Position numbers and translations under genes: made by a program. 54,535 nucleotides of DNA, taken from the NCBI RefSeq assembly GCF_003206715.1, contig NZ_PZJU01000026.1, positions 1 through 54,535 of the forward strand, written 5' to 3'. Below, piece by piece: positions 1-25,094 of the stretch (position 1 is the first letter of the stretch; every line of letters starts with the position of its first letter). The notes beneath the pieces are model-generated. The model had not been told where the DNA came from and did no database searches. It worked only from the letters and a program-made list of their open reading frames with translations. This stretch comes from Salinicola peritrichatus (GTDB lineage: Bacteria > Pseudomonadota > Gammaproteobacteria > Pseudomonadales > Halomonadaceae).

Positions 1-2384
1 CGCGGATAGAAACTATGACGATGCCGTGGGCGAGCCGTTCGACTATCCCGTCGCGGCCCGCACGGCCGCGCGGATAGAAACGACAACCGGGCATCGTCCA
101 TCGAGTCGAACGTCACGGTCGCGGCCCGCACGGCCGCGCGGATAGAAACCTTACCTAGGTGACGTCCATCGCCATTTGTTTAAGGTCGCGGCCCGCACGG
201 CCGCGCGGATAGAAACGAGAACGGCATCAACGACAATGCCGAGGCTATCGAGTCGCGGCCCGCACGGCCGCGCGGATAGAAACCATCCTACCACCAAATA
301 GACATGAATCAATTTGCCGGTCGCGGCCCGCACGGCCGCGCGGATAGAAACTCCGTCACCCTGCGTCCGCAGTCGATCTATGCCGGGTCGCGGCCCGCAC
401 GGCCGCGCGGATAGAAACGGGAGACGAAGGCCGCGTGGGAGCCAGAGCAAAACGTCGCGGCCCGCACGGCCGCGCGGATAGAAACCCCAAGGCTCGGATC
501 AAAGACCTTGACTCTGAAAAGTCGCGGCCCGCACGGCCGCGCGGATAGAAACTTCAACAAGTGACACGTCACCCCCCGATCGATTCGAGTCGCGGCCCGC
601 ACGGCCGCGCGGATAGAAACCAACCCGATTGATTGGCAACGAAGCTGGGAGATGTCGCGGCCCGCACGGCCGCGCGGATAGAAACTGCAATCTGCATGTC
701 GTAGTCTTCGCCCGACTCTTGTCGCGGCCCGCACGGCCGCGCGGATAGAAACTACCTTCCCAAGTCGAGCGAACAGGTGGTTGAGGGTCGCGGCCCGCAC
801 GGCCGCGCGGATAGAAACTCTGTGCTGACGCTGGGCAAGCCTAACAAGACGCCCGTCGCGGCCCGCACGGCCGCGCGGATAGAAACTTCCGTCCACCTAC
901 CCGCCTACGTAAATACGCTTGTCGCGGCCCGCACGGCCGCGCGGATAGAAACGCGGCATCATCTGCGCACCAACCGGCATGCCGAGTCGCGGCCCGCACG
1001 GCCGCGCGGATAGAAACACGCTGGCAGGAAAGGACAAAGACGGCAACGTCTAGTCGCGGCCCGCACGGCCGCGCGGATAGAAACTTCATACTACCCCTCT
1101 GAGCTAACTATTCCGGCCAAGGTCGCGGCCCGCACGGCCGCGCGGATAGAAACGTATTCGCGTGAGCGGATCCAGCCCAAGCAGCGAAGTCGCGGCCCGC
1201 ACGGCCGCGCGGATAGAAACAGTTGCTGGCGTAGGCGCTGCCGTCGACCGGTGAGGTCGCGGCCCGCACGGCCGCGCGGATAGAAACGGAGGCCACTGTC
1301 TGGATTGATCCAGAGGGCCGGTCGCGGCCCGCACGGCCGCGCGGATAGAAACGTCTCCCGAAGCCTGACAAGCGTGGATGGTGGCCTGTCGCGGCCCGCA
1401 CGGCCGCGCGGATAGAAACAACGACACCACGTCATCGATCAACTCGACGTTGACGTCGCGGCCCGCACGGCCGCGCGGATAGAAACGAGAGCCGGATTAC
1501 GACCGTGGTCAGCGAAGCCGTCGCGGCCCGCACGGCCGCGCGGATAGAAACATACGTTTTTGCAGGATTGAGACACAACCTAGACAGGTCGCGGCCCGCA
1601 CGGCCGCGCGGATAGAAACCGCCGCAACGGCATCGGCCGCGCCGGTGTCATGCGTCGCGGCCCGCACGGCCGCGCGGATAGAAACGCCGTCATGGATATC
1701 TCGGTGTGTCCGTTCCCAGGGTCGCGGCCCGCACGGCCGCGCGGATAGAAACTTGAACTCCTTCGGCCCGGTCTTGCATGTCACCGTGTCGCGGCCCGCA
1801 CGGCCGCGCGGATAGAAACATGAGCGTCTGGCTCATGATGCTGGTGACGGTTTGTCGCGGCCCGCACGGCCGCGCGGATAGAAACATTGCTCCGCCTCCA
1901 CTTGGCAGGACCAGCTGCGGTCGCGGCCCGCACGGCCGCGCGGATAGAAACTATGCGCTGAGCAAGGCGAAGATCGTCGAAGAGTTGTCGCGGCCCGCAC
2001 GGCCGCGCGGATAGAAACAGACTCAGAGCGCCGTCGGCAGCGCCTCTATCAGCGTCGCGGCCCGCACGGCCGCGCGGATAGAAACCAGCCAGACTGGCTG
2101 ATCCAGACATTGACCTATGGTCGCGGCCCGCACGGCCGCGCGGATAGAAACGGCTACTCCCTATCGCCTTCGGCTGCCTGGCCAACGTCGCGGCCCGCAC
2201 GGCCGCGCGGATAGAAACGCGATATAGCTCATGCTGCCCCCCGGATCTGATGGTCGCGGCCCGCACGGCCGCGCGGATAGAAACGTCAACGCCCCGCAGG
2301 TTATTCCGACCAACTACTAGTAGTCGCGGCCCGCACGGCCGCGCGGATAGAAACGCCTCGAGTTCGCTCACGCCCGAGGTCGAC
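1..2384 (+). CRISPR. CRISPR array, leader-proximal segment (type I-C-like repeats)
   Basis: Thirty-six copies of a 32-nt direct repeat, starting GTCGCGGCCC and ending GGATAGAAAC, are separated by 33-38-nt unique spacers (mostly 34-36). The first copy is cut by the window edge (only 1-13 present). Full repeats start at 50, 118, 185, 252, 320 and so on to 2323. Each repeat contains a perfect 7-bp stem, CGCGGCC/GGCCGCG, around the loop CGCAC. Length, stem position and the GAAAC end match the repeat family of type I-C systems. All copies here look identical. The last spacer (2355-2384) is broken after 30 nt by the transposon. No cas genes lie in the window. Repeat polarity and the decayed repeat at 12549 put the leader to the left. 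Open frames in this region are repeat artefacts. Confidence 0.98.
2380..2384. repeat. Target-site duplication, left copy (TCGAC)
   Basis: The five bases TCGAC immediately precede the left inverted repeat and recur immediately after the right inverted repeat at 9333-9337. A 5-bp duplication is the known hallmark of Tn402/Tn5053-family transposition. Removing the element and one copy restores a 35-nt spacer. Confidence 0.93.
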
Positions 2385-2409
2385 TGTCATTTTCAGAAGA
2401 CGACTGCAC
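2385..2409 (+). repeat. Left terminal inverted repeat (outer copy)
   Basis: This 25-bp end, beginning TGTCATTTTCAGAAG and finishing GACTGCAC, abuts the target duplication. It is the characteristic IR of the Tn402/Tn5053 family. It pairs with 9308-9332, with mismatches only at two internal positions. Confidence 0.93.
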
Positions 2410-2506
2410 CAGGTGGCGGGGCGTAACGCCAGGTGTGAAGGCGGCTGTCATTTTCAGAAGACGACTGCACCAGGTGGCGGGGCGTAACGCCAGGTGTGAA
2501 GGCGGC
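2385..2506 (+). repeat. 61-bp perfect tandem duplication of the transposon left end
   Basis: Positions 2385-2445 are repeated without mismatch at 2446-2506. Each unit holds the whole 25-bp inverted repeat and 36 bp of subterminal DNA, so the element has two nested potential left ends 61 bp apart. After the second copy the sequence continues into the normal leader of tniA. Only the outer copy abuts the target duplication, so the outer IR was used in this insertion, or the duplication arose later. Confidence 0.95.
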
Positions 2507-2589
2507 TCCTGACAGCCCGGTATCAGCAGTCACCTTCACCAACCTCGACTATGCTCAGTACTCCTATGCACCACAGGCGAGTCGGGGGC

Positions 2590-3068
2590 ATGGCGTCAGA
2601 CTCAACACCGATTGCCGAGCAAGGCGTGGCCACCCTGCCCGATAAAGCCTGGGCCCAGGCCCGGCAGCGAACGGACATCATCGGACCACTGGCAGCGCTT
2701 GAGGTGGTGGGGCATGAGGCCGTCGACGCCGCCGCTCAAGCGCTGGGCCTGTCCCGGCGACAGGTATATGTCCTGATCCACCGTGCCCGGCAAGGCACTG
2801 GCCTTGTGACGGACCTGGCTCCCGGCCAATCCGGCGGCGGGAAAGGCAAGGGGCGTCTGCCGGAGTCGGTCGAACGCATCATCCGTGAGCTGCTGCAAAA
2901 GCGCTTTCTGACCAAGCAGAAGCGCAGTCTGGCGGCGTTTCACCGCGAGGTCGCTCAGGCGTGCAAAGCGCGCCCGTTGCGGGTGCTGGCGGCGTACCTC
3001 CCGCTGCTATTACGCCGCTGGAACAAGTGCAGATCGACCACACGGTCATCGTCATGGACGAGCGCGAC
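2590..3068 (+). pseudogene. tniA: Truncated, frameshifted transposase gene tniA
   Basis: The ATG at 2590 starts a frame matching the N-terminal part of TniA of Tn402/Tn5053 elements, the DDE transposase that acts with TniB and TniQ. Recognisable stretches are EQGVATLPDKAW, the helix-turn-helix-like ALGLSRRQVYVLI, and KRFLTKQKRSLAAFHRE. Similarity stops near 2980 and resumes in a second frame (about 2997-3068) with PLEQVQIDHTVI, which holds the first Asp of the DDE triad at codon 3036. Part of the linker is therefore deleted or shifted. Nothing of the rest of the catalytic core follows. TniA is normally over 500 residues, so this is a non-functional remnant. Confidence 0.88.
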
Positions 3069-3073
3069 CGGCT

Positions 3074-3124
3074 ACCCACGAGACCTTCGACCGGGCCATC
3101 GCCGAGCATCTTGCCCGGGGCTGA
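3074..3124 (+). pseudogene. 3' end fragment of an unidentified gene at the cargo boundary
   Basis: Directly after the tniA stub a third frame reads THETFDRAIAEHLARG and then TGA at 3122. It is not part of TniA as I know it and looks like a natural protein C-terminus. It is followed at once by the hairpin that ends the convergent wrbA operon. I infer it is the tail of a gene that faced this operon in its original chromosome and was cut when the cargo was captured. The family is unknown and it could be chance. Confidence 0.35.
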
Positions 3125-3146
3125 ACCTCTGGCCCTGACACACGAA

Positions 3147-3176
3147 AGGCCCCGCACGGGTGACCGGGCGGGGCCT
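3147..3176 (-). terminator. Rho-independent terminator downstream of wrbA
   Basis: A perfect 9-bp stem AGGCCCCGC/GCGGGGCCT surrounds a 12-nt loop, 26 bp beyond the wrbA stop. On the minus strand it is followed by TTTCGTG, a short U-rich tail. It may also have served the truncated plus-strand gene ending at 3124. Confidence 0.7.
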
Positions 3177-3202
3177 AATCGGCAAGGGCGAGAGGAGCGC
3201 TA

Positions 3203-3799
3203 TCATCCGGCCAGCCGTGCAGCGATGCCGGCGACGTGCTCGCCCTGAAAACGGGCGAGGTTCAGCTCGGTCTCGCTGGGTTGACGTGAGCCGTCACCAC
3301 CGGCGATGGTCGCGGCGCCATACGGCGAGCCGCCCTTGACCTCGGAGATATCGAACTGGGCCTCGAGACCATAGCCGATGGGCACGATCACCATGCCGTG
3401 ATGGGCCAGGGTCGTCCAAGCGGTGAGAATCGTGGTCTCGTTGCCGCCGCCGGTGCCGGTGGAGGTGAAGACACTGGCCACCTTGCCGCGCAGGCTGCCG
3501 CTCGCCCACAGACTGCCGGTCTGGTCGAGGAAGGTGCGCATCTGGCCGGCCATGTTGCCGAAACGGGTCGGCGTGCCAAAGATAACGGCGTCATAGTCGG
3601 CCAGTTCCTCGGGACGCGCCTCGGGGGTGTCGAGTGCCTTGCCGCCGGCCTTGGCGAAGGCCTCCGGGTCCATCGTCTCGGGGACCCGCTTGATCGTCAC
3701 TTCGACACCGTTCACCTGGCGTGCGCCGTCCGCGATGCTGTTCGCCATGGTCTCGATATGGCCATACATGGAGTAGTAGAGCACCAGTACCTGGGTCAT
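3203..3799 (-). CDS. wrbA: NAD(P)H:quinone oxidoreductase, WrbA family
   Basis: This 198-residue flavodoxin-fold protein has the usual WrbA length. The FMN phosphate-binding loop [10 protein letters not shown] is at residues 8-17, followed by the WrbA signatures GTPTRFGNM (about 75-83) and GTGGGNETT (about 114-122). WrbA proteins reduce quinones by two electrons with NAD(P)H, avoiding semiquinone cycling. The start at 3799 is supported by AAGGAGGT eight bases upstream; a longer in-frame start at 3889 lacks this. It is the last gene of the leftward cargo operon and precedes a hairpin terminator. In context it likely detoxifies quinones, perhaps made by the other operon enzymes. Confidence 0.93.
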
Positions 3800-3945
3800 G
3801 GGTTGTACCTCCTTGGGAGTGCTGCGAGTTGTCGATCTTTCGAACAAACGGGAGTATCCGGAAGTAAGTGGTTGATACCTGTCCATCACAGGAATGAGCC
3901 TAGTCGCTTGCTCACCGGATTACCTGGTTGATGGAGGGTGGTCAG

Positions 3946-4887
3946 TTATCGCCTAGCAACATCTAGCCTGGCCAGCGCCTGTTCAGGCAGCGACAAGCTC
4001 ACGGAATCCAGTACTTCATCCAGCTGACCTAGACTAGTGGCGCTGGCAATGGGCGCGGTGACCGCGGGGCGGCTCAGCAGCCAGGCCAGAGCTACTTGGG
4101 CGGGCTTGGCGCCAAGCTCATCGGATACGTTCAACAGCTCCTGCAGAAGTCGCTGACCGCGCTCATCGAAGTAGCCCTTCAGGAAATCGGCCCGGGCGTT
4201 ACCTTCCAGATCCTCGAGCTTCGAATACTTACCGGTCAGAAAGCCGCTGGCCAGGGAGAAGTAGCTCACCACCCCGAGCGCATGCTCCTCGGCCACATTC
4301 GCAAGCCCGGCCTCAAAGTCGTCACGGTCATAGAGGTTATAGAGCGGCTGCGTCACTTCGTAGCGGGGCAGCCCCTGATTCCGGGAGACCGCCAGGGCCT
4401 CGCCCAGTCGCTCGGCGGAATAGTTGGAAGCGCCGATGGTTCGCACTTTGCCGGCCTCGATCAGCCGGGCGAAGGCCCCAAGGGTTTCCTCCAGTGGCAC
4501 ATCCTGGTCATCGATATGTGCGAAGTAGACGTCCAGGTAATCGGTACGCAGGCGCTTCAGGGAGTCCTCGACGGCGGCCTCGATGTTGGCCGCCGAGAGG
4601 CCCTTGCGCGGCTCCCACATGCCCACCTTGCTCATCAGTACGAGATCGTCGCGCCGCCCGCGCCGGGCCAGCCACTGACCCAGAACCGTTTCCGACTCAC
4701 CGCCCTCGAGCCCCGGCGCCCAGGCCGAATAGACATCGGCGGTGTCGATGGCGTTGAAGCCACGCTCGACGAAGCGATCGAGCAGGGTGAAGGAGCGGTC
4801 TTCATCGGCGGTCCAGCCGAAAACGTTGCCACCGAAGACGAGCGGTGCGATCTCGACCCCGGAGCGGCCCAAGTTGCGTTTTTTCAT
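3946..4887 (-). CDS. Aldo/keto reductase
   Basis: The 313-residue product is an NADPH-dependent TIM-barrel aldo/keto reductase. The catalytic tetrad is visible: Asp48 in AIDTADVYS, Tyr53, Lys87 in LMSKVGMW and His124 in YFAHIDDQD. The C-terminal half keeps the family pattern GASNYSAERL and ends with the cofactor-binding PIASATSLGQL. Family members reduce aldehydes and ketones to alcohols; the substrate cannot be read from sequence. The start at 4887 (MKKRNLGRSG) has AGAAAAGGATC upstream and fits the family N-terminus. Fourth gene of the cargo operon, between the cytochrome b561 and wrbA genes. Confidence 0.93.
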   Translation of the reverse strand: MKKRNLGRSGVEIAPLVFGGNVFGWTADEDRSFTLLDRFVERGFNAIDTADVYSAWAPGLEGGESETVLGQWLARRGRRDDLVLMSKVGMWEPRKGLSAANIEAAVEDSLKRLRTDYLDVYFAHIDDQDVPLEETLGAFARLIEAGKVRTIGASNYSAERLGEALAVSRNQGLPRYEVTQPLYNLYDRDDFEAGLANVAEEHALGVVSYFSLASGFLTGKYSKLEDLEGNARADFLKGYFDERGQRLLQELLNVSDELGAKPAQVALAWLLSRPAVTAPIASATSLGQLDEVLDSVSLSLPEQALARLDVARR

Positions 4888-4951
4888 GATCCTTTTCTCT
4901 CCCATGTCGAAAACCTGTTGAAGGCAATGCCTGGTACCTGTCACGGTCGCG

Positions 4952-5473
4952 CTACAGCATCCGCTTGAGCGTATCGTCACGCTGGACAAAGTGGTGAAAC
5001 AGGGCGATGCCGATATGCCCGAGGACCAGCGCGGTTAACGCCCAAGCCAGCGGTGAGTGCAGGCTGCCGAGACTTGCGGCCCAAGCGATCTCTTCACCCT
5101 CCGCAAGGATCTCCAACCCGAAGGCGGTCAGTTCATAGCCGCCTCCCAGCATCACCATCACCCCGGTGATCGGCATCAGCAGCATGCCGGCGAAGAGCAG
5201 GCCATGCCCGGCCTTGACCAGCTTGGCAGTGGCCGGGTCCTGGGCCGGACGCTGATGACGCTGACGCGCCACCCACGCCAGGCGCAGCACGATCAACACC
5301 AGTAGCAGGGTGCCGATGGAGACGTGCCAGGGAACCAGGGTCTGGCCTACCCAGTGCTCCCCCTCGGCGATCCGGTCACCAAACTTGAGCAGCTGCCAGA
5401 TGATCAATACCGCCATCAGCCAATGGAAGGCCTTGCTGACGCTGCCATAGCGTTCTTTGGAATCGTTGATCAT
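4952..5473 (-). CDS. Cytochrome b561-type di-haem membrane protein
   Basis: The 173-residue protein has four predicted membrane helices and the histidine pattern of prokaryotic cytochrome b561: His17 in KAFHW, His50 in PWHVSIG, His90 in KAGHGLL, His139 and His153/160 in the last helices. Such proteins pass electrons between quinones and soluble partners, for example in superoxide-dependent quinone reduction by CybB. The ATG at 5473 has GGAG six bases upstream. An ATG at 5479 is in frame but abuts the Shine-Dalgarno sequence. Third gene of the cargo operon, and the only membrane protein in it, so it is a candidate link between the cytosolic oxidoreductases and the quinone pool. Confidence 0.9.
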   Translation of the reverse strand: MINDSKERYGSVSKAFHWLMAVLIIWQLLKFGDRIAEGEHWVGQTLVPWHVSIGTLLLVLIVLRLAWVARQRHQRPAQDPATAKLVKAGHGLLFAGMLLMPITGVMVMLGGGYELTAFGLEILAEGEEIAWAASLGSLHSPLAWALTALVLGHIGIALFHHFVQRDDTLKRML

Positions 5474-5566
5474 CGACATCTCCGCCAGGTAGTTTCAAAA
5501 ATTCAAGCAGCTCCAAGCTAGCAGGCTAGCAAACCGCCTGCTATCGCCGCGGTCCCGACGTCTCGA

Positions 5567-6364
5567 TCAGGCAATGCTCTCGACGATGCCGCCTTCCACT
5601 CGCAGGGCGGAGCCGGTGGTGGCACTGGCCTGGGGCGAGGCCGCATAGACGCACAGGCTGGCGACCTCCTCAGGGGTGGCGAAGCGCTTGAGCAGGGTCG
5701 AGGGGCGGTTCTCCGCGAGGAACAGGGTCTCCATCTCCTCGGCCGAGACGCCGCGCTCGGCGGCCATCTTGGCCATCATCGCCTGGGCGCCTTCGGTACG
5801 GGTCGGGCCGGGCAGGATGGTGTTCACCGTGACGCCGCTGCCGGCCAGCACCTTGGCCAGGCCACGGGAGACGCCCTGCAGGGCCGCCTTGCTGACACCG
5901 TAGTGCACCATCTCGGAGGGAATGTTCAGCGCCGACTCGCTGGAGATGAACTGGATGCGACCCCAGCCGCGGGCCTGCATGCCCTGGGCATAGTGGCGCG
6001 CCAGGCGCACCCCGCTCATGACGTTGATCTGGAAGATCTCTTCCCAGGCGGCGTCGTCAATCTCGAAGAAGGGGCGGCCGCCGTAGATGCCTAGGTTGTT
6101 GACCAGGATATCGACCTCGGGGCGGGCCGCGATCAGCGCCTGACAGCCTTCGGCGGTGCCGGGGTCGGCCACCACGCCGCTGGCATCGTCACGGTCACTG
6201 GCCTGCTGGATATGGGCCACGGCCTTGTCCACCTTGGCCTGATCGCGACCGACCACGGTCACGCTGGCACCCGCCTGGGCCAGGCCAGTGGCGATCGCCA
6301 GCCCAATGCCCGCGGTGGAGCCGGTGACTAGGGCCTGTTTGCCGGAAAGTTCAATTCGCATCAT
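5567..6364 (-). CDS. Short-chain dehydrogenase/reductase (SDR)
   Basis: This classical SDR of 265 residues has the dinucleotide-binding motif TGSTAGIG at residues 14-21, the structural NNLG at 89-92, and catalytic Ser in SSES (141-144), Tyr155 and Lys159 (YGVSK). It should oxidise or reduce a hydroxyl/carbonyl with NAD(P); the substrate is unknown. Two adjacent ATG codons (6364, 6361) follow AGGAGATAG, and either could start. Second gene of the leftward cargo operon, 62 bp after the dioxygenase gene. Confidence 0.92.
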   Translation of the reverse strand: MMRIELSGKQALVTGSTAGIGLAIATGLAQAGASVTVVGRDQAKVDKAVAHIQQASDRDDASGVVADPGTAEGCQALIAARPEVDILVNNLGIYGGRPFFEIDDAAWEEIFQINVMSGVRLARHYAQGMQARGWGRIQFISSESALNIPSEMVHYGVSKAALQGVSRGLAKVLAGSGVTVNTILPGPTRTEGAQAMMAKMAAERGVSAEEMETLFLAENRPSTLLKRFATPEEVASLCVYAASPQASATTGSALRVEGGIVESIA

Positions 6365-6426
6365 CTATCTCCTGCTGTATTGCGTGAGTTGCCATGTGAG
6401 GTGGCTGTGAAAGTGGCGTGGCCGCC

Positions 6427-7257
6427 TCAGCCGAAGCGGTAGGCGGACAGCTGCGTCTTGAGCACTTGTTCCGAATAGATCTTGCGGCCCTTGTCCTTCC
6501 CCGCGGCGCCGGCGGCGACCATCAGCGGGATCAGGTGCTCTTCGTCGCCCGGCGGGTGGCACTGAGGCGCATGGGGTGCCCGAGCCCAGTCGCCAAGCGC
6601 GGCGTGGCGCCGATCCGGCTCAGCCTCCACGGTCTGAGTCAGCCAGTCATCAAAGGCCTCGGAGGGTGCGGTAAAACGCGCATCCCCGTAGCCGCGCATG
6701 TTGTGGAAGCTCATGCCGCTGCCGACGATCAGTACACCTTCATCACGCAGCGACGCCAAGGCCTCGCCAGCAGCGAGATGGGCCGCGGGATCGAGATCAT
6801 CGCGCAGCGACAACTGCACTACGGGGATATCCGCCTCGGGGAACATCAGCTTCAGCGGCACGAACATACCGTGATCGAACCCCCGCTCGGTGTCCCGTTG
6901 GCTGGCCAGACCGGCTTGAGAGAGCAGCCTGTCGACCTGCTCTGCCAGGGCCGGCGCGCCGGGGGCCGGGTAGGTGAGCTCATAGGTGTGGTCAGGAAAC
7001 CCGTGGTAATCGTAGATCAGCTCGGGGTATTCACCCGCGCTCACGCGAAAGCCGGGGGTTCGCCAGTGGGCGGAGACCATCAGGATCGCGCGGGGGCGGG
7101 CCGGCAGCGAGGCGGCCACGCCCTTGAGGAAGCCTGCCATGCCTTCCCAGGTGCCGGGCGGGTTCCAGTCCATGAAGAAGCACGGGCCGGCGCCGTGGGG
7201 AATGAACAGCACCGGCTGGGTGGTTGAATCAGGGGGCGATACGCTCGCGTTGGTCAT
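6427..7257 (-). CDS. 4,5-DOPA dioxygenase-like protein (LigB/YgiD class III extradiol dioxygenase)
   Basis: The 276-residue product matches the bacterial DODA/YgiD family, metal-dependent ring-cleaving dioxygenases. Conserved metal and active-site histidines are in place: His21 in FIPHGAGP, His64 in VSAHW, His129 in FDHGMFVPL, His185 in SFHNM and His241 in EEHLIPL. Many family members have uncertain substrates and may act on catechol-like compounds. It is the first gene of the operon, divergent from the LysR gene across 122 bp. A catechol dioxygenase followed by quinone, aldehyde and alcohol oxidoreductases suggests handling of aromatic or quinone compounds, which is inference. Confidence 0.88.
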   Translation of the reverse strand: MTNASVSPPDSTTQPVLFIPHGAGPCFFMDWNPPGTWEGMAGFLKGVAASLPARPRAILMVSAHWRTPGFRVSAGEYPELIYDYHGFPDHTYELTYPAPGAPALAEQVDRLLSQAGLASQRDTERGFDHGMFVPLKLMFPEADIPVVQLSLRDDLDPAAHLAAGEALASLRDEGVLIVGSGMSFHNMRGYGDARFTAPSEAFDDWLTQTVEAEPDRRHAALGDWARAPHAPQCHPPGDEEHLIPLMVAAGAAGKDKGRKIYSEQVLKTQLSAYRFG

Positions 7258-7379
7258 CGTGTAATTCCTTGGGCCATGCGGCCCGGTGAATACTTAGGTA
7301 GGTAATACTGTATCCTCACTCCCTTAGTAAGAGAATATGGTATTTTATGCAAACACCTTTAACTATGAGTGCGAAATAG
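7258..7379. promoter_or_regulatory. Divergent promoter region with candidate LysR operator
   Basis: This 122-bp spacer between the dioxygenase operon and the LysR gene is AT-rich compared with its neighbours. It holds an imperfect inverted repeat: AATACTGTATCC at 7304-7315 and GAATATGGTATT at 7333-7344 (9 of 12 pairs). LysR proteins usually bind such sites in a divergent intergenic region and control both directions. Exact -10 and -35 boxes cannot be assigned. Confidence 0.5.
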
Positions 7380-8348
7380 ATGCTGGACCGTTTTACGGGG
7401 ATGCGGGTCTTTACCCAAGCGGCAACCCACGGCAGCCTATCGGCGGCGGGACGCGCGCTGGGCATGTCGCCGGCTATGGCCACCAAGCACATGGATGCCC
7501 TGGAGGCCCGGCTGGGCGTCAAGCTACTGCATCGCACCACCCGACGGCTGACGTTGACGGACGCCGGCACCGACTATCTCGAGGCCTGCCGGCGCATCCT
7601 GCAGGAACTCGACGAGGCGGAGTCGGAAGTGGCCGCCCAGAGAGTCGAAGCGGTCGGGCGGCTGCGCATGAATGTACCGCTCTCCTTCGGCGTGCGCTTC
7701 ATCGCGCCACTGCTACCCGCGTTCCACCGTCGCTATCCAAAGGTGGAGGTCGAACTGGGCCTGAGCGATGCCCAGCACGGCCTGATCCAGGAAGGCTGGG
7801 ACCTGGCGATCCGCATCGGTCATCTTGCCGACAGCTCGCTCAAGGCGCGACGGCTGGGCGACTGCCCGATGCGGGTCTGTGCCGCGCCGGACTATCTGGA
7901 ACGATACGGCACGCCGGGGGGCGTCGCCGAACTATCCGGCCATAACTGTCTGAGCTATACCCTGTCGCCCTCTCAGAGAGAGGGGACCTGGAGCTTCGGT
8001 CGCGAGGGCGACATTCAGGTGCCTGTGCAAGGCGATCTCAAAGCCAACAATGGTGATGCATTATTGGTGGCGGCGCTTGGCGGGCAGGGCGTGATCTATC
8101 AGCCGAACTTCATCGTGGGGGAGGCCCTGGCGCGCGGTACCCTGGTGGCCCTGGAACTCGACCAGCCCACGCTCGACCTGGGCGGCTTGCATGTGCTGTT
8201 TCCCCCCGACCGGCGCCCACCAGCCAAGGTCAGGGCGATGATCGATTACCTGGTTGAGGCATTTGCGCAGTCCTCCTGCCAGACCCCGTCTCTGACAACT
8301 AGGGAAAGCTCGGCCAGTGTAAGGAGACTCCGTGACCAGCCCGACTGA
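7380..8348 (+). CDS. LysR-family transcriptional regulator of the cargo operon
   Basis: The 322-residue protein has an N-terminal winged helix-turn-helix (about residues 1-60, with GSLSAAGRALGMSPAMATKHM) and a periplasmic-binding-protein-like effector domain from about residue 90. It resembles the CrgA/AaeR-type branch (FTQAATHGSLSAAG, LLHRTTRRLTLTDAG). It is divergent from the five-gene redox operon, the usual arrangement for a LysR activator of its neighbours. The Shine-Dalgarno sequence is weak. The last 25 or so residues look unlike the family and may be read-through into junction DNA near 8275-8348, which also holds a second short start (8332). Confidence 0.92.
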   Translation: MLDRFTGMRVFTQAATHGSLSAAGRALGMSPAMATKHMDALEARLGVKLLHRTTRRLTLTDAGTDYLEACRRILQELDEAESEVAAQRVEAVGRLRMNVPLSFGVRFIAPLLPAFHRRYPKVEVELGLSDAQHGLIQEGWDLAIRIGHLADSSLKARRLGDCPMRVCAAPDYLERYGTPGGVAELSGHNCLSYTLSPSQREGTWSFGREGDIQVPVQGDLKANNGDALLVAALGGQGVIYQPNFIVGEALARGTLVALELDQPTLDLGGLHVLFPPDRRPPAKVRAMIDYLVEAFAQSSCQTPSLTTRESSASVRRLRDQPD

Positions 8349-8385
8349 TAACATTCTCCATCTGCCGGACTTCCAAGGACGATAG
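8332..8385 (+). pseudogene. 5' fragment of an unidentified gene at the cargo boundary
   Basis: A strong Shine-Dalgarno (AAGGAGACTCC) precedes GTG at 8332 and the frame MTSPTDNILHLPDFQGR, stopped by TAG at 8383. It overlaps the 3' end of the LysR gene. It looks like the beginning of a longer protein cut at the right capture junction. The N-terminus vaguely recalls ISL3-type transposases, but 17 residues are too few to assign. Confidence 0.3.
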
Positions 8386-8389
8386 CATT

Positions 8390-8536
8390 CTGGAGAATCG
8401 CGCCATTTGGTTCTTGAACACAGGGCCACAGGGCCCAGAGGAGGCCGTTCAATACCTGGCGGTGATCCCGCCCTGGCAAGCTCATCGTCTGGAGCGGCGA
8501 GACGATGTCCTCGATCAGCGACCAGCTGGTCAATAG
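8390..8536 (+). pseudogene. Possible 3' remnant of tniQ
   Basis: A frame reads on from the junction through NTGPQGPEEAVQYLAVIP and WQAHRLERRDDVLDQR to TAG at 8534. It sits just upstream of the res-like region, where tniQ ends in intact Tn5053-type elements (order tniA-tniB-tniQ-res-tniR). The assignment rests mainly on position; I could not confirm the residues as TniQ. Confidence 0.3.
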
Positions 8537-8597
8537 GAAAGCGCACTCGTTCAAAGCGATTGCCCGCTTGCTCAGAACTCCCGTGCATGATGCATCT

Positions 8598-8713
8598 TTG
8601 TCCGGGAAACGATCATTAGGCGGCCAAGCCGGACAGTGTCCGAGAATAGGCTTGTTTGATGGGTTTTCGGACAATAAGATAGGCGGACGGATAAACGGAC
8701 AAAAAGGCGGTCC
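8598..8713. promoter_or_regulatory. Candidate res (resolution) site of TniR
   Basis: Upstream of tniR the hexamer CGGACA or its complement TGTCCG occurs five times: 8599-8604, the 13-bp perfect palindrome at 8630-8642 (CGGACA-G-TGTCCG), 8668-8673 and 8696-8701. Serine resolvases of this family bind a cluster of inverted repeats between tniQ and tniR. The palindrome could be the crossover subsite. The stretch probably also carries the tniR promoter. Confidence 0.6.
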
Positions 8714-9301
8714 ATGGCACTGATCGGCTATGCGCGGGTCTCGACGGCGGAGCAGGACTCCGCCTTGCAGACTGATGCGCTTCACAAGGCGGGGTGTGAG
8801 CGAATCTTCGATGACACCGTCTCTGGGGCCAAGGCGGAACGCCCTGGCCTGACGGCGGCCCTGGAGTTCCTACGCGACGGGGATGTGCTGGTCGTGTGGC
8901 GACTGGATCGACTGGGGCGCTCGCTGCCGCATCTGATCGAGGTCGTCAGCACCTTGGAGGCGCGTGGTGTCGGCTTCCGGTCACTGACCGAAGCCATCGA
9001 CACCACCACCCCCGGTGGGCGGCTGATCTTCCATGTATTCGGCGCCCTGGGGCAGTTCGAGCGCGACCTGATCCGAGATCGCACCAAGGCAGGGCTCGCC
9101 GCTGCCGCCGCCCGTGGGCGTAAAGGAGGTCGCAAGCCCGTCGTCACCGACGACAAGCTGAAGCGGGCCAGGGAGCACCTGGCCAATGGGCTGAACGTCC
9201 GCGAGGCCGCCGCACGCCTCAAGGTCAGCAAGACGGCCCTCTACGCCGCCTTGAAGGCCGGCCAGTCCGATGCCCCAGACCACAGTGCAACCGACTCCTG
9301 A
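8714..9301 (+). CDS. tniR: Serine resolvase TniR of the Tn402/Tn5053 family
   Basis: The 195-residue protein is a complete small serine recombinase. The nucleophile is Ser10 in YARVSTAEQD, with the arginine-containing VVWRLDRLGRSLPHL and GQFERDLIRDRT segments of the catalytic domain and a C-terminal helix-turn-helix (about 165-185, NVREAAARLKVSKTALYAAL). It resolves transposition cointegrates at res. The gene ends seven bases before the right inverted repeat, as in Tn402-type elements. It is the only tni gene that looks intact. Confidence 0.93.
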   Translation: MALIGYARVSTAEQDSALQTDALHKAGCERIFDDTVSGAKAERPGLTAALEFLRDGDVLVVWRLDRLGRSLPHLIEVVSTLEARGVGFRSLTEAIDTTTPGGRLIFHVFGALGQFERDLIRDRTKAGLAAAAARGRKGGRKPVVTDDKLKRAREHLANGLNVREAAARLKVSKTALYAALKAGQSDAPDHSATDS

Positions 9302-9307
9302 CACTCC

Positions 9308-9332
9308 GTGCGGTCGCCTTCTGAAAATGACA
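9308..9332 (-). repeat. Right terminal inverted repeat
   Basis: The reverse complement begins TGTCATTTTCAGAAG and ends GACCGCAC, matching the left repeat except at two internal positions. It is followed directly by the second TCGAC target duplication (9333-9337). Confidence 0.92.
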
Positions 9333-9337
9333 TCGAC
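9333..9337. repeat. Target-site duplication, right copy (TCGAC)
   Basis: Same pentamer as 2380-2384. The five bases after it, ACCGG (9338-9342), are the rest of the interrupted spacer, which then runs into a full CRISPR repeat at 9343. Confidence 0.93.
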
Positions 9338-12300
9338 ACCGGGTCGCGGCCCGCACGGCCGCGCGGATAGAAACCAACGCTGCCCGGCGACTGGTCGAAA
9401 ACCGGACGTCGCGGCCCGCACGGCCGCGCGGATAGAAACAGCACCGACCCGCGCGTCTATCCCTTCGGGCGGGCGTCGCGGCCCGCACGGCCGCGCGGAT
9501 AGAAACAAGCGGCGGAGACGGTGGAGGAGGCGCGAACCGTGTCGCGGCCCGCACGGCCGCGCGGATAGAAACCCTGATTCTGGCCTTGAAGGCCTCGACG
9601 TCCTGCACGTCGCGGCCCGCACGGCCGCGCGGATAGAAACCTTGGCTGAGGTGTCGCGCCCGCGCAGCTCCCACACGTCGCGGCCCGCACGGCCGCGCGG
9701 ATAGAAACTCATGCCTGGTGCGACCTCCTTGGGGATCTGCGTCGTCGCGGCCCGCACGGCCGCGCGGATAGAAACTTTGATCTCGTTGCTCCGCGCGATG
9801 ACGCAGCCATGTCGCGGCCCGCACGGCCGCGCGGATAGAAACCGATGAACGAGGACTGGGAGCCTGAGTGGCGAGCGGGTCGCGGCCCGCACGGCCGCGC
9901 GGATAGAAACATCGGCCAGCTGCAGGGCATGGCCGGCACCTTCAAGTCGCGGCCCGCACGGCCGCGCGGATAGAAACTCCGGCCAGGTATCGTCCAAGTC
10001 CTCGTCCGGATAGTCGCGGCCCGCACGGCCGCGCGGATAGAAACGCTCCATCGTGCGCGTGGACCGGTCGACCTGGCGCGTCGCGGCCCGCACGGCCGCG
10101 CGGATAGAAACGACGAGGAAGACCTCAAGGGCATGACGGCCAACGCCAGTCGCGGCCCGCACGGCCGCGCGGATAGAAACTCAAGAGCTACGAGGGTGTC
10201 GTGAATCGCGCCATCGGTCGCGGCCCGCACGGCCGCGCGGATAGAAACTGATACGCATCGACGACTACGACGCATCAACCGAAGTCGCGGCCCGCACGGC
10301 CGCGCGGATAGAAACTTTGGGACCTTGGCACAGGGGTGGATACAGGGGTGGTCGCGGCCCGCACGGCCGCGCGGATAGAAACCAGCCCCGGCGCTACTGT
10401 CCTGCCGTCGTCGCAAGTCGCGGCCCGCACGGCCGCGCGGATAGAAACGCGTTCGAGAACTACACCCGCACCGCCCAGGTACTCGTCGCGGCCCGCACGG
10501 CCGCGCGGATAGAAACTGGGCCGTCGACAAGCCGATGCACCCCAGCCTGGCGTCGCGGCCCGCACGGCCGCGCGGATAGAAACCACTGGACCCCGGCGGA
10601 CATGGACGGCATGACCCTGTCGCGGCCCGCACGGCCGCGCGGATAGAAACTTCTACCGGCTTCGTCGTCGAGCTGCTGCTGGGGTCGCGGCCCGCACGGC
10701 CGCGCGGATAGAAACGCTGATAGAGCGCTGCGAGAAAAGAACGACGCCCGTCGCGGCCCGCACGGCCGCGCGGATAGAAACACCAACAGGCGGTGCGTGA
10801 AAGCAACTTGATGGTGGTCGCGGCCCGCACGGCCGCGCGGATAGAAACATTAGCCCAGACATTGAGTCAACTGGAGAGGCTAGTCGCGGCCCGCACGGCC
10901 GCGCGGATAGAAACAATGACGATCAGTACAAGATATACAGTTTCATTGACGTCGCGGCCCGCACGGCCGCGCGGATAGAAACATCTGGTGGCGCGAATTC
11001 TGGACCACCGACACCCAGTCGCGGCCCGCACGGCCGCGCGGATAGAAACAAGCCACTGCAGACAAATTGGATTGGCCGATTCCTGTCGCGGCCCGCACGG
11101 CCGCGCGGATAGAAACCCCCGCAGCAAGAACGCCCGCAAATTCATCCGCGGTCGCGGCCCGCACGGCCGCGCGGATAGAAACGTTGCGTCCGATATAGCG
11201 AAAGCGCTCGAGTACCAGAGTCGCGGCCCGCACGGCCGCGCGGATAGAAACCCTGCTAATGTATAGCGGGCAATGCCAGTAACGGGTCGCGGCCCGCACG
11301 GCCGCGCGGATAGAAACATATGTGCCTTGGATAACAAGCGCCAGCTAGGCGTCGCGGCCCGCACGGCCGCGCGGATAGAAACCAATAGAATGTTGGGAAA
11401 TGCGCCTTGATATAGGGTCGCGGCCCGCACGGCCGCGCGGATAGAAACTACGCTCAGACACCGGTCTGAATGAACGAGATCCATGTCGCGGCCCGCACGG
11501 CCGCGCGAATAGAAACTGTTTGCGGATGCGCCGTTGCTGGCTCTTGCGCAGGTCGCGGCCCGCACGGCCGCGCGGATAGAAACAGTGTCTTACCCCCTGT
11601 GCCAAGGTCCGTGCCACGTCGCGGCCCGCACGGCCGCGCGGATAGAAACCGCTACGCGTTTAAGTGGGCACCGCCGGTAAACGGTCGCGGCCCGCACGGC
11701 CGCGCGGATAGAAACGCCGGCCGGGCGCTTTGCCCAGGTCTTTCTCGGGGTCGCGGCCCGCACGGCCGCGCGGATAGAAACAAAAACCGCATATCGCGAA
11801 GCTGGCGCGCCAGGCCGTCGCGGCCCGCACGGCCGCGCGGATAGAAACAACCAGGGCTACCACTACGTGCCCGGGCCGGGGATGTCGCGGCCCGCACGGC
11901 CGCGCGGATAGAAACCGGCTCCCGGCGAATCACCGCCAGCAGTTGCCGGGTCGCGGCCCGCACGGCCGCGCGGATAGAAACGCTGTCCGGCGTCATCGGT
12001 AGTTTCTCTCGTCGTTGTCGCGGCCCGCACGGCCGCGCGGATAGAAACCGGCTCAACGTCGAGATCCATATCCCAAATGCTCGTCGCGGCCCGCACGGCC
12101 GCGCGGATAGAAACCGTTGCAAGGACGGCGTGAACGAGGGATGAGTCATGTCGCGGCCCGCACGGCCGCGCGGATAGAAACGGCTTGCTAACGTGGCCGA
12201 TGACGCAGCCGGTAACGGTCGCGGCCCGCACGGCCGCGCGGATAGAAACACTGCCGCGATTGCGAAGTCGAAGGAGCGGCCCGTCGCGGCCCGCACGGCC

Positions 12301-12574
12301 GCGCGGATAGAAACTCGAACGCGAACAGCGGATCCTCGCTGCAGGTGCGGTCGCGGCCCGCACGGCCGCGCGGATAGAAACATCGATGTCGACTCGATCA
12401 CCGCCAAGGATCTGAGTCGCGGCCCGCACGGCCGCGCGGATAGAAACTGTAGCGACGTGAGTATCTGTGCATCCAGGACCTGTCGCGGCCCGCACGGCCG
12501 CGCGGATAGAAACACCGGGTTCGACACCGCCACGGCCAGCACCCGCAAGTCGCGGCCCGCACGGCCGCGCGGAT
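9338..12574 (+). CRISPR. CRISPR array, leader-distal segment
   Basis: This is the continuation of the same array: 49 repeats starting at 9343, 9408, 9475 and so on to 12482, plus a degenerate last copy at 12549. It holds 48 intact spacers of 33-37 nt and the last five bases of the interrupted spacer. Repeats are identical to the left segment except the copy at 11485-11516, where GGATAG is GAATAG. The last repeat keeps its first 26 bases and then diverges, as expected at the trailer end. Spacers here should be the oldest in the array. Open frames are artefacts. Confidence 0.98.
12549..12574 (+). repeat. Degenerate terminal CRISPR repeat (trailer end)
   Basis: The first 26 bases match the repeat exactly, but the final AGAAAC is replaced by unrelated sequence (GAATGA). 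A decayed last repeat marks the leader-distal end. Only 22 bp separate it from the 3' end of the convergent downstream gene. Confidence 0.9.
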
Positions 12575-12596
12575 GAATGAAGCTTGAACCTTCTAG

Positions 12597-13443: not shown

Positions 13444-14499
13444 TCAGCGGCTACGTGCTTCGTTGGCCAACTGTTGCAGAAGCTGAAGCTGATCGCCTTC
13501 CAGTTCAGGCGTTGGGGAGAGATGTTCGCGCTGGGCATCGCTCAGTTGGGAGGCCTCGCGCAGACCGGGATCGAGCCGCGGCAATGCCGCCTCGTTGGGG
13601 GTGCGGTAATAGGCGTAAGTAGCGGAACGCGCGGCGATCTCCGGCCGCAGCATGAAGCTGATGAACTGCCTGGCCAGTTCGGGATGTGGCGCGCGCCGGG
13701 GAATGACCAACGTATCGACGCCCAATTGGGAACCCTCTTCGGGAATATAGAATTTCAGCTTGGCGTAGGTCTGCGGCGAATCCGCCTTGCGATAATCCAG
13801 ATCACCGCTGTAGGTGACGGCGGCGCGGGTCACGCCTCGGGCGATCTGGTCGATGGCGGCGGTGCTGTCGGCGAAGCCGGTGAAATTCGAACGATCAAGG
13901 GTTTGACTGACCAGCTTGGCGGCTTCGATCCATTGCTCGCGGTCGGTGCAGTCGAAGCCATGTCCCTGGTAGGCACAGGCCATGCCGAACAGTACCTGCG
14001 GATCGCCACCAAGCAGCGCGAACGGTTGATCCGGATTGACCTCGGGATCGAACAGCAGCGACCACGATGGCGTTGGATCGGGGAAGGTTTCGCTGTCATA
14101 GACGATGCCCGTAACGCCCCACAGATAAGGCACGCTGTAGCGGTCTTCGGGATCGTAGCTGGGATGGCGGAAGGCCGGCATCAGATTGTCGCGTCCCTCG
14201 ATCCCGTCGCCCAGGGGTTGGATCAGTTCGGAGGCGACCAGCCTCGGGACGTAATAATCGGTGGGCACCACCACATCGAACTGGGCGTCGCCGCCGGCCA
14301 CCAGCTTTGAGTACATCTCGGCATTCGAAGTGAAATAGCTCTGTACGACCTCGACGCTGAACTCCTGCTCGAATTCGTCGATGACAGCGGGATCGGCATA
14401 CTCCGTCCAGTTGAACAGATAGAGCTTGTCGTCATCCTGTGCCTGAGCCAGGCCGGCGACCAGCGCCAGTGGCAGCAGCGCGATCGGTGTCGGTCGCAT
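13444..14499 (-). CDS. Polyamine ABC transporter substrate-binding protein (PotF/SpuD-like), copy 1
   Basis: The 351-residue periplasmic binding protein has a signal peptide (residues 1-20, cleavage after AQA) and the hallmark start of the mature protein LYLFNWTEYADP. Other family features are the hinge stretch VPYLWGVTGIVYD and SWSLLFDPE. It should bind putrescine, spermidine or a related polyamine for the PotGHI-like transporter. The start at 14499 has GAGGGGAA upstream. It is the last gene of the leftward polyamine cluster and a diverged paralogue of the product encoded at 16014-17087, so the two may differ in ligand. Confidence 0.92.
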   Translation of the reverse strand: MRPTPIALLPLALVAGLAQAQDDDKLYLFNWTEYADPAVIDEFEQEFSVEVVQSYFTSNAEMYSKLVAGGDAQFDVVVPTDYYVPRLVASELIQPLGDGIEGRDNLMPAFRHPSYDPEDRYSVPYLWGVTGIVYDSETFPDPTPSWSLLFDPEVNPDQPFALLGGDPQVLFGMACAYQGHGFDCTDREQWIEAAKLVSQTLDRSNFTGFADSTAAIDQIARGVTRAAVTYSGDLDYRKADSPQTYAKLKFYIPEEGSQLGVDTLVIPRRAPHPELARQFISFMLRPEIAARSATYAYYRTPNEAALPRLDPGLREASQLSDAQREHLSPTPELEGDQLQLLQQLANEARSR

Positions 14500-14580
14500 C
14501 GTCTTCCCCTCGAGTTTTGTCGTTGTTGGCAACGGGACGCCGCGATGACGGCCCCGCCGGCGATCCTGCGCTATCCCGTT

Positions 14581-15945
14581 TCACACCCGCAATAGCAGAT
14601 GCTCGCGCTCCCAGGAGCTGATGACCCGGAAATAGGCCGAATGCTCGGCGCGCTTGACCGCCAGGTAGCTGCGGGTGAAGCGCTCTCCGAGCAGGTCCGC
14701 CAGTGGTGCGCACTCGCTCAGCGCATTGAGCGCGGGGCCGATATCGTCCGGCAGCGTATGTCCCGCGGACCAGGCGGAGCCGGTCAGCGGCGGGCGCGGT
14801 TCGATCTGTGCCAGCATGCCCAGATAGCCGCAGGCAAGCGATGCCGCCATCACCAGATACGGGTTGGCATCGGCGCCGGCCAGGCGATTCTCGACCCGTG
14901 TTCCTGCGGCCGGGCCGACGGGCACACGAAGCCCGACGGTGCGGTTGTCGTAGCCCCATTCGGTGTTGATCGGCACCGAGCTGTTGCTCTCGCCCGGCAT
15001 CAGGCGGCGGTAGGAGTTGACGTTGGGGGCGAAGAACGGCATCGCCGACGGCAGATACTGCTGCAGGCCGCCGATGTAATGGTGGAACAGCTTGCTTGGC
15101 TGCCCGTCCTCGCCGGCGAACAGGTTGTCGCCGCTGCCACGGTCGATCAGGCTCTGGTGCAGATGCATCGAACTGCCGGGCTCGTTGGCCATGGGCTTGG
15201 CCATGAAGGTGGCGTACATGCTGTGACGCAGCGCCGTCTCGCGCAGCGTGCGCTTGAAGATCACCACCTGGTCGGCCAGGCGCAGCGGATCGCCATGACG
15301 GAAGTTGACCTCCATCTGGCCGGCGCCTTCCTCGTGGGTCAGGGTATCGATGTCGAGTTGCTGAGCCTCGCAGTAGTCGTACATCTGCTCGAACAGCGGA
15401 TCGAATTCGTTGACCGCATCGATCGAGAACGACTGACGGCTGCTCTCCTGACGGCCCGTGCGGCCGATCGGCGGCTCCAATGGGTAATCGGGGTCGGTAT
15501 TGGTCTTGACCAGATAGAACTCGAGCTCCGGCGCCATGATCGGTTGCCAGCCACGGGCTTCGTAGAGCGAGAGCACGTGCTTCAATACGTGGCGTGGAGA
15601 GAGCTCCACCGGGTCGCCGTTCATGTAGAGACAGTCGTGGATGATCTGCGCCGTGGGATCGTCGGCCCACGGTACCAGATAGGCGGAGCTGGGATCGGGC
15701 ACCAGTTGCATGTCCAGTTCCGCCGGATTCCAGAAGCGGATGTCTTCGTCATCCGGATAACCGCCGGTGACGGTCTGGATGAAGATCGAATCCGGCAGCC
15801 GGGTGCGTCCTCCGCGGAGATACTTGCTGGCGGGCATGATCTTGCCCTTGAGAATGCCGGTCAGGTCGGAGACCAGGCACTCCACCTCGGTAATGCCATG
15901 CCGGGTGAACCAGTCTTCGAGTACGTGACGTACTGTGTCACTCAT
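14581..15945 (-). CDS. Gamma-glutamylputrescine synthetase-like glutamine synthetase (PuuA/SpuB), copy 1
   Basis: The 454-residue protein is a glutamine-synthetase-family ligase of the PuuA/SpuB branch, which joins glutamate to putrescine or another polyamine using ATP. Visible family motifs are VECLVSDLTGILKGK near the N-terminus, the metal-binding ELEFYLV, EEGAGQMEVNF, NEPGSSMHLHQSL and ENRLAGADANPYL. The start at 15945 (MSDTVRHVLE) fits the family; the longer frame upstream is unlike it. It lies between the two binding-protein genes, so uptake and first-step catabolism appear to be transcribed together. Confidence 0.9.
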   Translation of the reverse strand: MSDTVRHVLEDWFTRHGITEVECLVSDLTGILKGKIMPASKYLRGGRTRLPDSIFIQTVTGGYPDDEDIRFWNPAELDMQLVPDPSSAYLVPWADDPTAQIIHDCLYMNGDPVELSPRHVLKHVLSLYEARGWQPIMAPELEFYLVKTNTDPDYPLEPPIGRTGRQESSRQSFSIDAVNEFDPLFEQMYDYCEAQQLDIDTLTHEEGAGQMEVNFRHGDPLRLADQVVIFKRTLRETALRHSMYATFMAKPMANEPGSSMHLHQSLIDRGSGDNLFAGEDGQPSKLFHHYIGGLQQYLPSAMPFFAPNVNSYRRLMPGESNSSVPINTEWGYDNRTVGLRVPVGPAAGTRVENRLAGADANPYLVMAASLACGYLGMLAQIEPRPPLTGSAWSAGHTLPDDIGPALNALSECAPLADLLGERFTRSYLAVKRAEHSAYFRVISSWEREHLLLRV

Positions 15946-23720: not shown

Positions 23721-25094
23721 ATGCACGTTCACGTGTTGGGGATCTGTGGAACCTTCATGGGCAGCCTGGCCCGCCTGACCAAAGCGCTGGGCCACCGCGT
23801 TACCGGTTCCGATGCCAACGTCTATCCACCGATGAGCCATCAGCTGGAAGAAGCCGGCATTCAACTGATGGCAGGGTACCGCGCCGACAACCTCCAGCCC
23901 CGCCCCGATCTGGTCGTCGTCGGCAATGCACTGTCCCGCGGCAACCCGGAGGTCGAAGCGTTACTGAACGCCAAGCTGCCCTACGTTTCCGGCCCCCAAT
24001 GGCTGGCGGAGCATGTGCTGCCGGGGCGCACCGTGCTGGCGGTCGCCGGCACCCACGGCAAGACCACCACGGCCAGCATGCTGGCCTGGATTCTGGAGGC
24101 CCGCGGGCTCGAACCCGGTTTTTTGATCGGCGGCGTGCCGCGCAATTTCGGCGTGTCGTCCCGTCTGGGCGCGCCCGGAGCACCCTTCGTGGTCGAGGCC
24201 GACGAGTACGACACGGCGTTTTTCGACAAGCGTTCGAAGTTCGTTCACTACCATCCCGATATCGCCATTCTCAACAACCTCGAGTTCGATCACGCCGATA
24301 TCTTCGACGATCTCGCGGCCATCGAGCGGCAGTTTCACCACTTCGTGCGCACGGTGCCGGGCAACGGCCGCCTCGTTGTCGCCGACAGCGAGCCGGCACT
24401 GGAGCGCGTATTGGAACAGGGCTGCTGGACGCCGGTCCTGCGTTTCGGGCAGGCGGCCGAGAGCGCTTGGCGTTTCGAACTCGATGCCGACGACAGCCGG
24501 GGAGTTGTCCTTTATCACGCAGGCGAGTGCCACCGGTTCCGGTGGTCGATGAGCGGACGACACAACGCCGCCAACGGCGTGGCGGCATTGGCAGCGGCGC
24601 ATCAGCTCGGTGTATCTGCGGCCGATGGCTGCCGCGCGCTGGCTGACTTCGCGGCGCCCAAGCGGCGACAGGAAGTTCGCGGCGAGGTGGCCGGCATCCA
24701 GGTGATCGACGATTTTGCCCACCACCCGACGGCGATCGCCCTGACCTTGGAAGGGCTGCGTCGCGATGGTCACGGCGGGCGCTTGCTGGCGGTGATCGAG
24801 CCGCGCTCCAACACCATGCGCCAGGGCACCATGAAAGCACGACTGGCCGACAGCGTGGCACTGGCCGATCGGGTCTGGTGGTATCAGCCGCCGGGGCTGG
24901 ACTGGTCGTTGGCTGAGGTCGTCGCCGGTCATTCGGCCAGCCGGGTCGAGAACGATCTGGAAGCGCTGGTGGCGCAGGTGACGGCGGCGGCCGAGCCCGG
25001 CGACCGCATCGTGGTGATGTCCAACGGCGGCTTCGGCGGCGTGCACGACAAACTGCTGCGAGCACTGGAGACGAGCCATGGCAAGCCGCGCTGA
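23721..25094 (+). CDS. mpl: UDP-N-acetylmuramate:L-alanyl-gamma-D-glutamyl-meso-diaminopimelate ligase
   Basis: The 457-residue Mur ligase re-attaches the recycled tripeptide L-Ala-D-Glu-mDAP to UDP-MurNAc, in the cytoplasm. The N-terminal dinucleotide-like fold has HVLGICGTFMG. The ATP loop AVAGTHGKTTTASM spans about 107-120. The Mpl-type segment GVPRNFGVSSRLG and the C-terminal FAHHPTAI follow. ATG at 23721 is preceded by GGAGAAGGCGGT. An upstream in-frame ATG at 23691 is less likely. It overlaps ubiX by 17 bp, the mpl-ubiX pairing known in Pseudomonas and relatives. Confidence 0.95.
   Translation: MHVHVLGICGTFMGSLARLTKALGHRVTGSDANVYPPMSHQLEEAGIQLMAGYRADNLQPRPDLVVVGNALSRGNPEVEALLNAKLPYVSGPQWLAEHVLPGRTVLAVAGTHGKTTTASMLAWILEARGLEPGFLIGGVPRNFGVSSRLGAPGAPFVVEADEYDTAFFDKRSKFVHYHPDIAILNNLEFDHADIFDDLAAIERQFHHFVRTVPGNGRLVVADSEPALERVLEQGCWTPVLRFGQAAESAWRFELDADDSRGVVLYHAGECHRFRWSMSGRHNAANGVAALAAAHQLGVSAADGCRALADFAAPKRRQEVRGEVAGIQVIDDFAHHPTAIALTLEGLRRDGHGGRLLAVIEPRSNTMRQGTMKARLADSVALADRVWWYQPPGLDWSLAEVVAGHSASRVENDLEALVAQVTAAAEPGDRIVVMSNGGFGGVHDKLLRALETSHGKPR

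Follow-up and report, generated by a model that had tools for sequence, protein, structure and literature searches.

The window analysed here, which covers bases 1 to 54,535 of contig C30 (74,359 bases) in the draft genome of Salinicola peritrichatus (4.62 Mb in 109 contigs), opens in a long type I-C array of clustered regularly interspaced short palindromic repeats (CRISPR) that is interrupted by a mobile element. A tni-defective relative of the Tn402/Tn5053 transposons very probably transposed into one spacer of this array, presumably helped in trans, and thereby split it. Our conclusion that one continuous array was split draws on the ends of the element, the 5-bp duplication beside them, the modal length of the rejoined spacer, the same repeat and orientation in both blocks, the placement of leader and cas genes on one side and trailer on the other, and synteny with related genomes. 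A split by a single transposition had been proposed in an earlier, sequence-only reading of the window, and these lines of evidence support it.

Insertion site and the interrupted array

In the window, a 32-nt repeat recurs in 84 complete units that reach to about position 12580; two of these units deviate from the consensus (the unit at 11485 with one mismatch and the trailer unit at 12549 with five). Uninterrupted spacers in the window are 33-38 nt long, and 36 of 83 measure 35 nt. Between the 35th and 36th complete units, however, the interval is 6,988 nt instead of the usual 33-38. The site is composed as follows:

1..2354, + strand: leader-side array part in the window, type I-C, 35 spacers; first repeat cut by the contig edge
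2355..2384, + strand: left 30 nt of the interrupted spacer, with the target duplication TCGAC as its final 5 nt
2380..2384: target-site duplication TCGAC, left copy
2385..9332: tni-defective Tn402/Tn5053-type element, 6,948 bp
2385..2409, + strand: outer left terminal inverted repeat, 25 bp
9308..9332, - strand: right terminal inverted repeat, 25 bp
9333..9337: target-site duplication TCGAC, right copy
9338..9342, + strand: terminal 5 nt (ACCGG) of the interrupted spacer
9343..12580, + strand: leader-distal array part, 48 spacers; ends in the degenerate trailer repeat at 12549

The left terminal repeat and the reverse complement of the right one match at 23 of 25 positions. Both ends are of the TGTCATTTTCAGAAG type, about 25 bp long, like the ends of elements with full-length matches to tniA, B, Q and R in three genomes of the same bacterial family (G063, G173 and G267); this motif is the defining mark of Tn402/Tn5053 ends. 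When the flanks are rejoined, 30 nt and 5 nt form a 35-nt spacer of modal length, and the repeats that border it (2323-2354 and 9343-9374) are both perfect. By simple arithmetic, one 5-bp match would arise by chance about once in 1,000 cases. The coordinates, family-type ends, perfect TCGAC duplication and 35-nt joined spacer described in the sequence-only reading were all confirmed.

Because the window opens inside a repeat at the contig edge, the array continues on another contig. At the end of contig C1 (29,242 bases) stand the initial 12 nt of the same repeat sequence, and the window opens with its final 13 nt. C1 carries 58 perfect repeat units and one containing NN, oriented as in the window, preceded by a leader-like stretch that was judged to be a leader by position only. 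According to PADLOC models, C1 also encodes cas3, cas5c, cas8c, cas7c, cas4 and cas1 (best models Cas3c, Cas5c, Cas8c, Cas7c, Cas4c and Cas1c), together with a cas2-like open reading frame (ORF) of 96 amino acids that was assigned by position alone. The features of a type I-C locus are present, namely a cas set beside the array, a leader on one side and a degenerate repeat on the other, and non-repeated spacers. Between the cas2-like ORF and the leader lie two small overlapping ORFs (14452-15049 of the C1 stretch L009), which by eye look like a RelE/HigB-type toxin and a helix-turn-helix antitoxin.

Synteny connects the two contigs. In the single-contig genus genomes G006 and G017, both outer flanks of the locus lie only 134 bp apart (1876406/1876541 and 3997837/3997972, respectively), with the cas-side flank gene matching up to position 6597 of L009 and the trailer-side flank gene matching from window position 12621. 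Given this spacing, neither genome has a CRISPR at this place, and the window's repeat has no copy in either. From the synteny, C1 and C30 represent the two ends of one CRISPR locus. The leader side holds 94 spacers (59 on C1 and 35 in the window), and no spacer is common to the C1 block and the window block. We infer a single array with 143 spacers or more, in which about 94 are newer than the interrupted one and 48 are older; this count assumes the two cut repeats to be one unit, and a gap may hide more.

Spacers on both sides of the element match phage genes. Positions 1951-1984 match a Pseudomonas phage primosomal gene (E-value 4e-4). The spacer at 10449 matches phage tail-sheath genes at E-values of 5e-4 to 7e-3 in alignments nearly confined to the spacer, and reaches 2e-8 in a 95-nt alignment that extends past it. 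Positions 12315-12354 match a tail-sheath gene as well (E-value 7e-3).

Could the array never have been continuous? Two arrays with the same repeat might have been joined by recombination between copies of the element, given that long exact repeats recombine easily and that a second copy exists in a related species. We assign this explanation a very small probability, since the duplication is perfect, the rejoined spacer has the modal length, and the two blocks share one leader and one trailer at a single syntenic locus. Moreover, the terminal repeat occurs in the source genome at three sites, all at this element, and the 141 repeats within one mismatch in that genome are fully accounted for (58 on C1 and 83 in the window).

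Several points nevertheless weigh against a clean split by transposition. Both junctions are known from assembled draft contigs. The break between C1 and C30 falls within the array and one repeat contains NN, so that a gap of some length may separate the contigs. The insertion site has no recognisable res target, despite the family's preference for res, and a draft genome could miss a tni copy. With up to three mismatches allowed, the joined spacer was found in 0 of 275 genomes of the bacterial family, a set that includes the source genome (G000) and holds one genome per species, and therefore no sister strain. Nor was a protospacer found for it: the joined spacer had no exact match in viral_contigs, either as a 35-mer or as a 21-mer, and searches against phages and plasmids gave best E-values of 0.1 and 0.08, which are at chance level. 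The sequence-only reading had looked to a relative with an uninterrupted array and to viral and plasmid databases for the joined spacer; the 275 genomes yielded no such relative, and the databases no match above chance. The 21-mer across the junction likewise had no exact match in genome_contigs, which also holds one genome per species. The first part of the joined spacer matches the window itself at about 24278-24296 (18 of 19 positions, E-value 0.003); with 140 queries and a small target set, this was taken as chance.

An assembly artefact, in which the element or the array blocks were misjoined, would draw on the same draft state, namely 109 contigs, an array broken at a contig edge and NN in one repeat, and the exact 61-bp tandem copy at the left end of the element could also be an assembly effect. 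A chance misjoin, however, would not yield a perfect 5-bp duplication at family-type ends inside a spacer of modal length, and Salinicola salarius carries the same element bounded by its own duplication. We consider such an artefact very improbable. The NN in mid-repeat (L009 18970-18990) and the C1/C30 break both lie in the palindromic core of the repeat, which suggests sequencing or assembly trouble at that hairpin.

A further question is whether the element was directed to the array. According to the available excerpts of PMC7765201, Tn402/Tn5053 transposons generate 5-bp direct repeats and are res-site hunters that prefer res sites and use other sites inefficiently. The palindromic repeat or the spacer might accordingly resemble a resolution site or be bound by a recombinase, making CRISPR arrays preferred targets, and one of five other two-ended elements of the family that we checked (in G063) does adjoin a foreign resolvase gene. 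Insertion into a CRISPR was seen only once, however, and the flanking ORFs scanned at the other four elements (in G013, G173, G267 and G206) gave no resolvase (nine ORFs scanned in all); the G013 element lies beside phosphotransferase system genes, and in G267 the insertion falls at the edge of a KAP-NTPase gene. Spacer sequence accounts for 52% of the array, with 140 spacers counted, so that an element landing in the array would strike a spacer about as often as a repeat, and no special explanation is needed. Targeted insertion is therefore highly unlikely in our view. The description of the element as precisely inserted stands for a clean insertion inside a spacer, but not in the sense of special targeting.

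There was no sign of a spacer aimed at the element: when the 140 spacers were compared with the element and eight tni-bearing loci, the best 15 matches extended over at most 15 nt without mismatch, at a tni locus, and those to the element over 14 nt without mismatch or 16 of 17. Predicted RNA folding across the left junction showed no excess over shuffled sequences (z 0.28).

Structure and relatives of the element

The interior of the element contains a tniA remnant near the left end, a resolvase gene near the right end and six cargo genes between them:

2446..2506, + strand: the left 61 bp (2385-2445) repeated exactly, which adds another terminal repeat; present once in the sister element
2590..3083, + strand: tniA remnant, residues 1-142 plus 152-202 (a different frame) of 559; a second comparison gave 1-134 and 160-199
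3203..3808, - strand: WrbA-type NAD(P)H:quinone oxidoreductase (cargo)
3946..4887, - strand: aldo/keto reductase (cargo)
4952..5479, - strand: cytochrome b561 family protein (cargo)
5567..6364, - strand: short-chain dehydrogenase/reductase (cargo)
6427..7257, - strand: LigB-family extradiol dioxygenase (cargo); nearest NCBIfam model 4,5-DOPA-extradiol-dioxygenase, below its cut-off
7380..8348, + strand: LysR-family regulator (cargo)
8714..9301, + strand: serine resolvase at the position of tniR, directed toward the distal array

The resolvase matches Pfam Resolvase (1.6e-47) and, over 129 residues, shares 53% identity with TniR of plasmid pAKD4. Queries with TniB and TniQ of pAKD4 found no match at an E-value of 0.001 in the source genome or in S. 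salarius (G013), whereas the control genome G063 gave full-length matches to both. Pfam PF05621 was dropped as a test for TniB, as it fires in all 18 genus genomes and also in 13 of the 14 controls, and the pAKD4 proteins were used instead. Two weak TniA matches elsewhere in the source genome (23.3 and 19.8 bits over 53-60 residues) were taken for other integrase-type proteins. By its predicted gene content, the element is a tni-defective derivative and not a complete Tn402/Tn5053 transposon. With only a fragment of tniA and no TniB or TniQ match, it would, as it now stands, be unable to transpose with its own genes. The family assignment of the sequence-only reading thus holds for the ends and the 5-bp duplication, but the term transposon has to be narrowed to a defective derivative.

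We propose that TniA, TniB and TniQ acted in trans on the 25-bp ends, supplied by a related complete element that has since been lost or was never resident. A 5-bp staggered cut at the target would leave TCGAC on both sides, and the array would be cut into a leader-linked part of about 94 newer spacers and a leader-less part of 48 older ones. Such helpers are plausible because full elements occur in the bacterial family: G063, G173 and G267 carry elements in which TniA, B, Q and R all match over their full length, with ends of the same type and 5-bp duplications. Another genome, G041, has two inverted ends without a matching 5-bp duplication, and its tniA and tniB each match in two pieces; it was left out of the comparison of target sites.

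The closest relative of the element lies in S. salarius 1A01339. Matches at an E-value of 1e-120 occur in 94 of the 275 genomes, and among the matches listed, nearly the whole element was found, besides the source genome, only in S. salarius, the remainder being pieces. The S. salarius copy is 98.3% identical over 6,837 bp and sits elsewhere in that genome. It belongs to an element of 9,120 bp with a single left end, its own 5-bp duplication (CCTGG) and, near the right end, an additional gene in which a GGDEF motif can be recognised by eye. Matches longer than 500 bp between the source genome and the S. salarius chromosome, flanking the CRISPR locus of the former, are 71-83% identical; compared with this, the 98.3% identity of the element indicates that it was shared between the lineages recently. 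The window adds a tni-defective Tn402/Tn5053-type element with metabolic cargo, a redox and aromatic-compound set, common to two Salinicola-type species.

The 61-bp tandem duplication (2385-2506) yields two usable-looking terminal repeats, with slippage, aborted transposition or assembly as candidate origins. Being absent from the S. salarius copy, it probably arose on the lineage of the window. A shorter element with related ends (3.84-3.86 kb) recurs in six genomes of the bacterial family (G218, G216, G220, G206, G266 and G212). Its duplications read CCTGG (CCAGG in the other orientation), and CCTGG is also the duplication at the S. salarius copy of the window's element.

In S. salarius, a related array is built of 114 units of a repeat variant 33 nt long. 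Its spacers showed no match within six mismatches to those of the window and C1 (112 of 113 against 138 of 140 intervals, limited to intervals of at most 60 nt, which left out those of 6,988, 99 and 70 nt), so that the array offers no comparator. It ends (contig C122, about 74062-74230) in one repeat exactly of the window's type, and two of the 114 variants have three mismatches. Shortly past it lies a stretch matching the 3' end of an hda-like gene (86%), as if the locus had duplicated its insertion site.

Expected effect on the array

The CRISPR RNA (crRNA) of the interrupted spacer should not mature normally, because the upstream repeat is kept and the downstream repeat is lost. With no downstream repeat to define its 3' end, this crRNA would be lost. 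The 48 older spacers now lie 6.9 kb further from the leader, behind five oppositely read genes, and their expression would be reduced unless transcription through tniR, whose stop codon lies 31 bp before the right end, exits the element there. A scan of positions 2300-9500 gave three promoter-like sites (shuffles 1.2, standard deviation 1.1), of which those at 3179 and 5473 are on the plus strand, and two terminator-like sites (shuffles 3.7, standard deviation 2.2), the plus-strand one at 4864-4877. Within the scanned region, the plus strand had no terminator-like site after 4877 and, by the sigma-70-type scan used, no promoter-like site after 5502, and hence none just upstream of tniR. The older spacers might still be expressed from the transposon via tniR, which would turn one array into two separately controlled guide units; we think this unlikely, and the lack of a promoter-like site just upstream of tniR speaks against it.

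The clean natural split of this CRISPR record could serve as a natural test of leader-dependent expression along an array, and the insertion is a possible strain-typing marker for the species. The proposal that it forms a dated marker within the spacer record holds for order, as the insertion followed the acquisition of the interrupted spacer, but it provides no date, and the newer spacers may have been acquired before or after it.

Comparison with known systems

Like the Tn402/Tn5053 family and its tni-defective derivatives, among them class 1 integrons and Tn6606-like elements, the element has 25-bp ends and a 5-bp duplication; the excerpted text of PMC7765201 describes 5-bp repeats and the movement of tni-defective members with tni functions supplied in trans. 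The element also has a TniR-type resolvase gene near one end and a tniA remnant at the other. In contrast to the family, it lacks tniB and tniQ and carries redox, dioxygenase and LysR cargo instead of mer or an integron. Its left end is duplicated, its target is a CRISPR spacer, and array lies on both sides.

Insertion into CRISPR loci has precedents, and the description of such events as rarely seen was overstated. As far as the available portion of PMC3119063 describes it, the miniature inverted-repeat transposable element (MITE) HqIRS37 lies inside a CRISPR spacer of Haloquadratum walsbyi HBSQ001, and the ancestral spacer was rejoined and a match to it found. Both cases place a mobile element within a spacer. 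The Haloquadratum case, however, concerns an archaeal MITE in a cas-less remnant array with a matched spacer, whereas here a gene-carrying element of 6.9 kb interrupts a long array beside an apparently complete cas set, and no match to the rejoined spacer was found. The accessible part of PMC10359306 reports 28 natural insertions of insertion sequences (IS) into cas clusters, which are considered to abolish immunity; it also cites cases in which IS or prophages inserted into CRISPR loci. These are likewise natural transpositions into CRISPR-Cas loci; here, unlike in the IS cases, no insertion breaks the cas ORFs seen or the leader-side array. The sections available of PMC9045143, on Tn402 and on CRISPR arrays, and of PMC8649781, on Tn402/Tn5053, describe no insertion into an array, and no report of this particular case was found in the open-licence literature. 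The kind of event is already known, and the split array of S. peritrichatus is a well-preserved new example of it.

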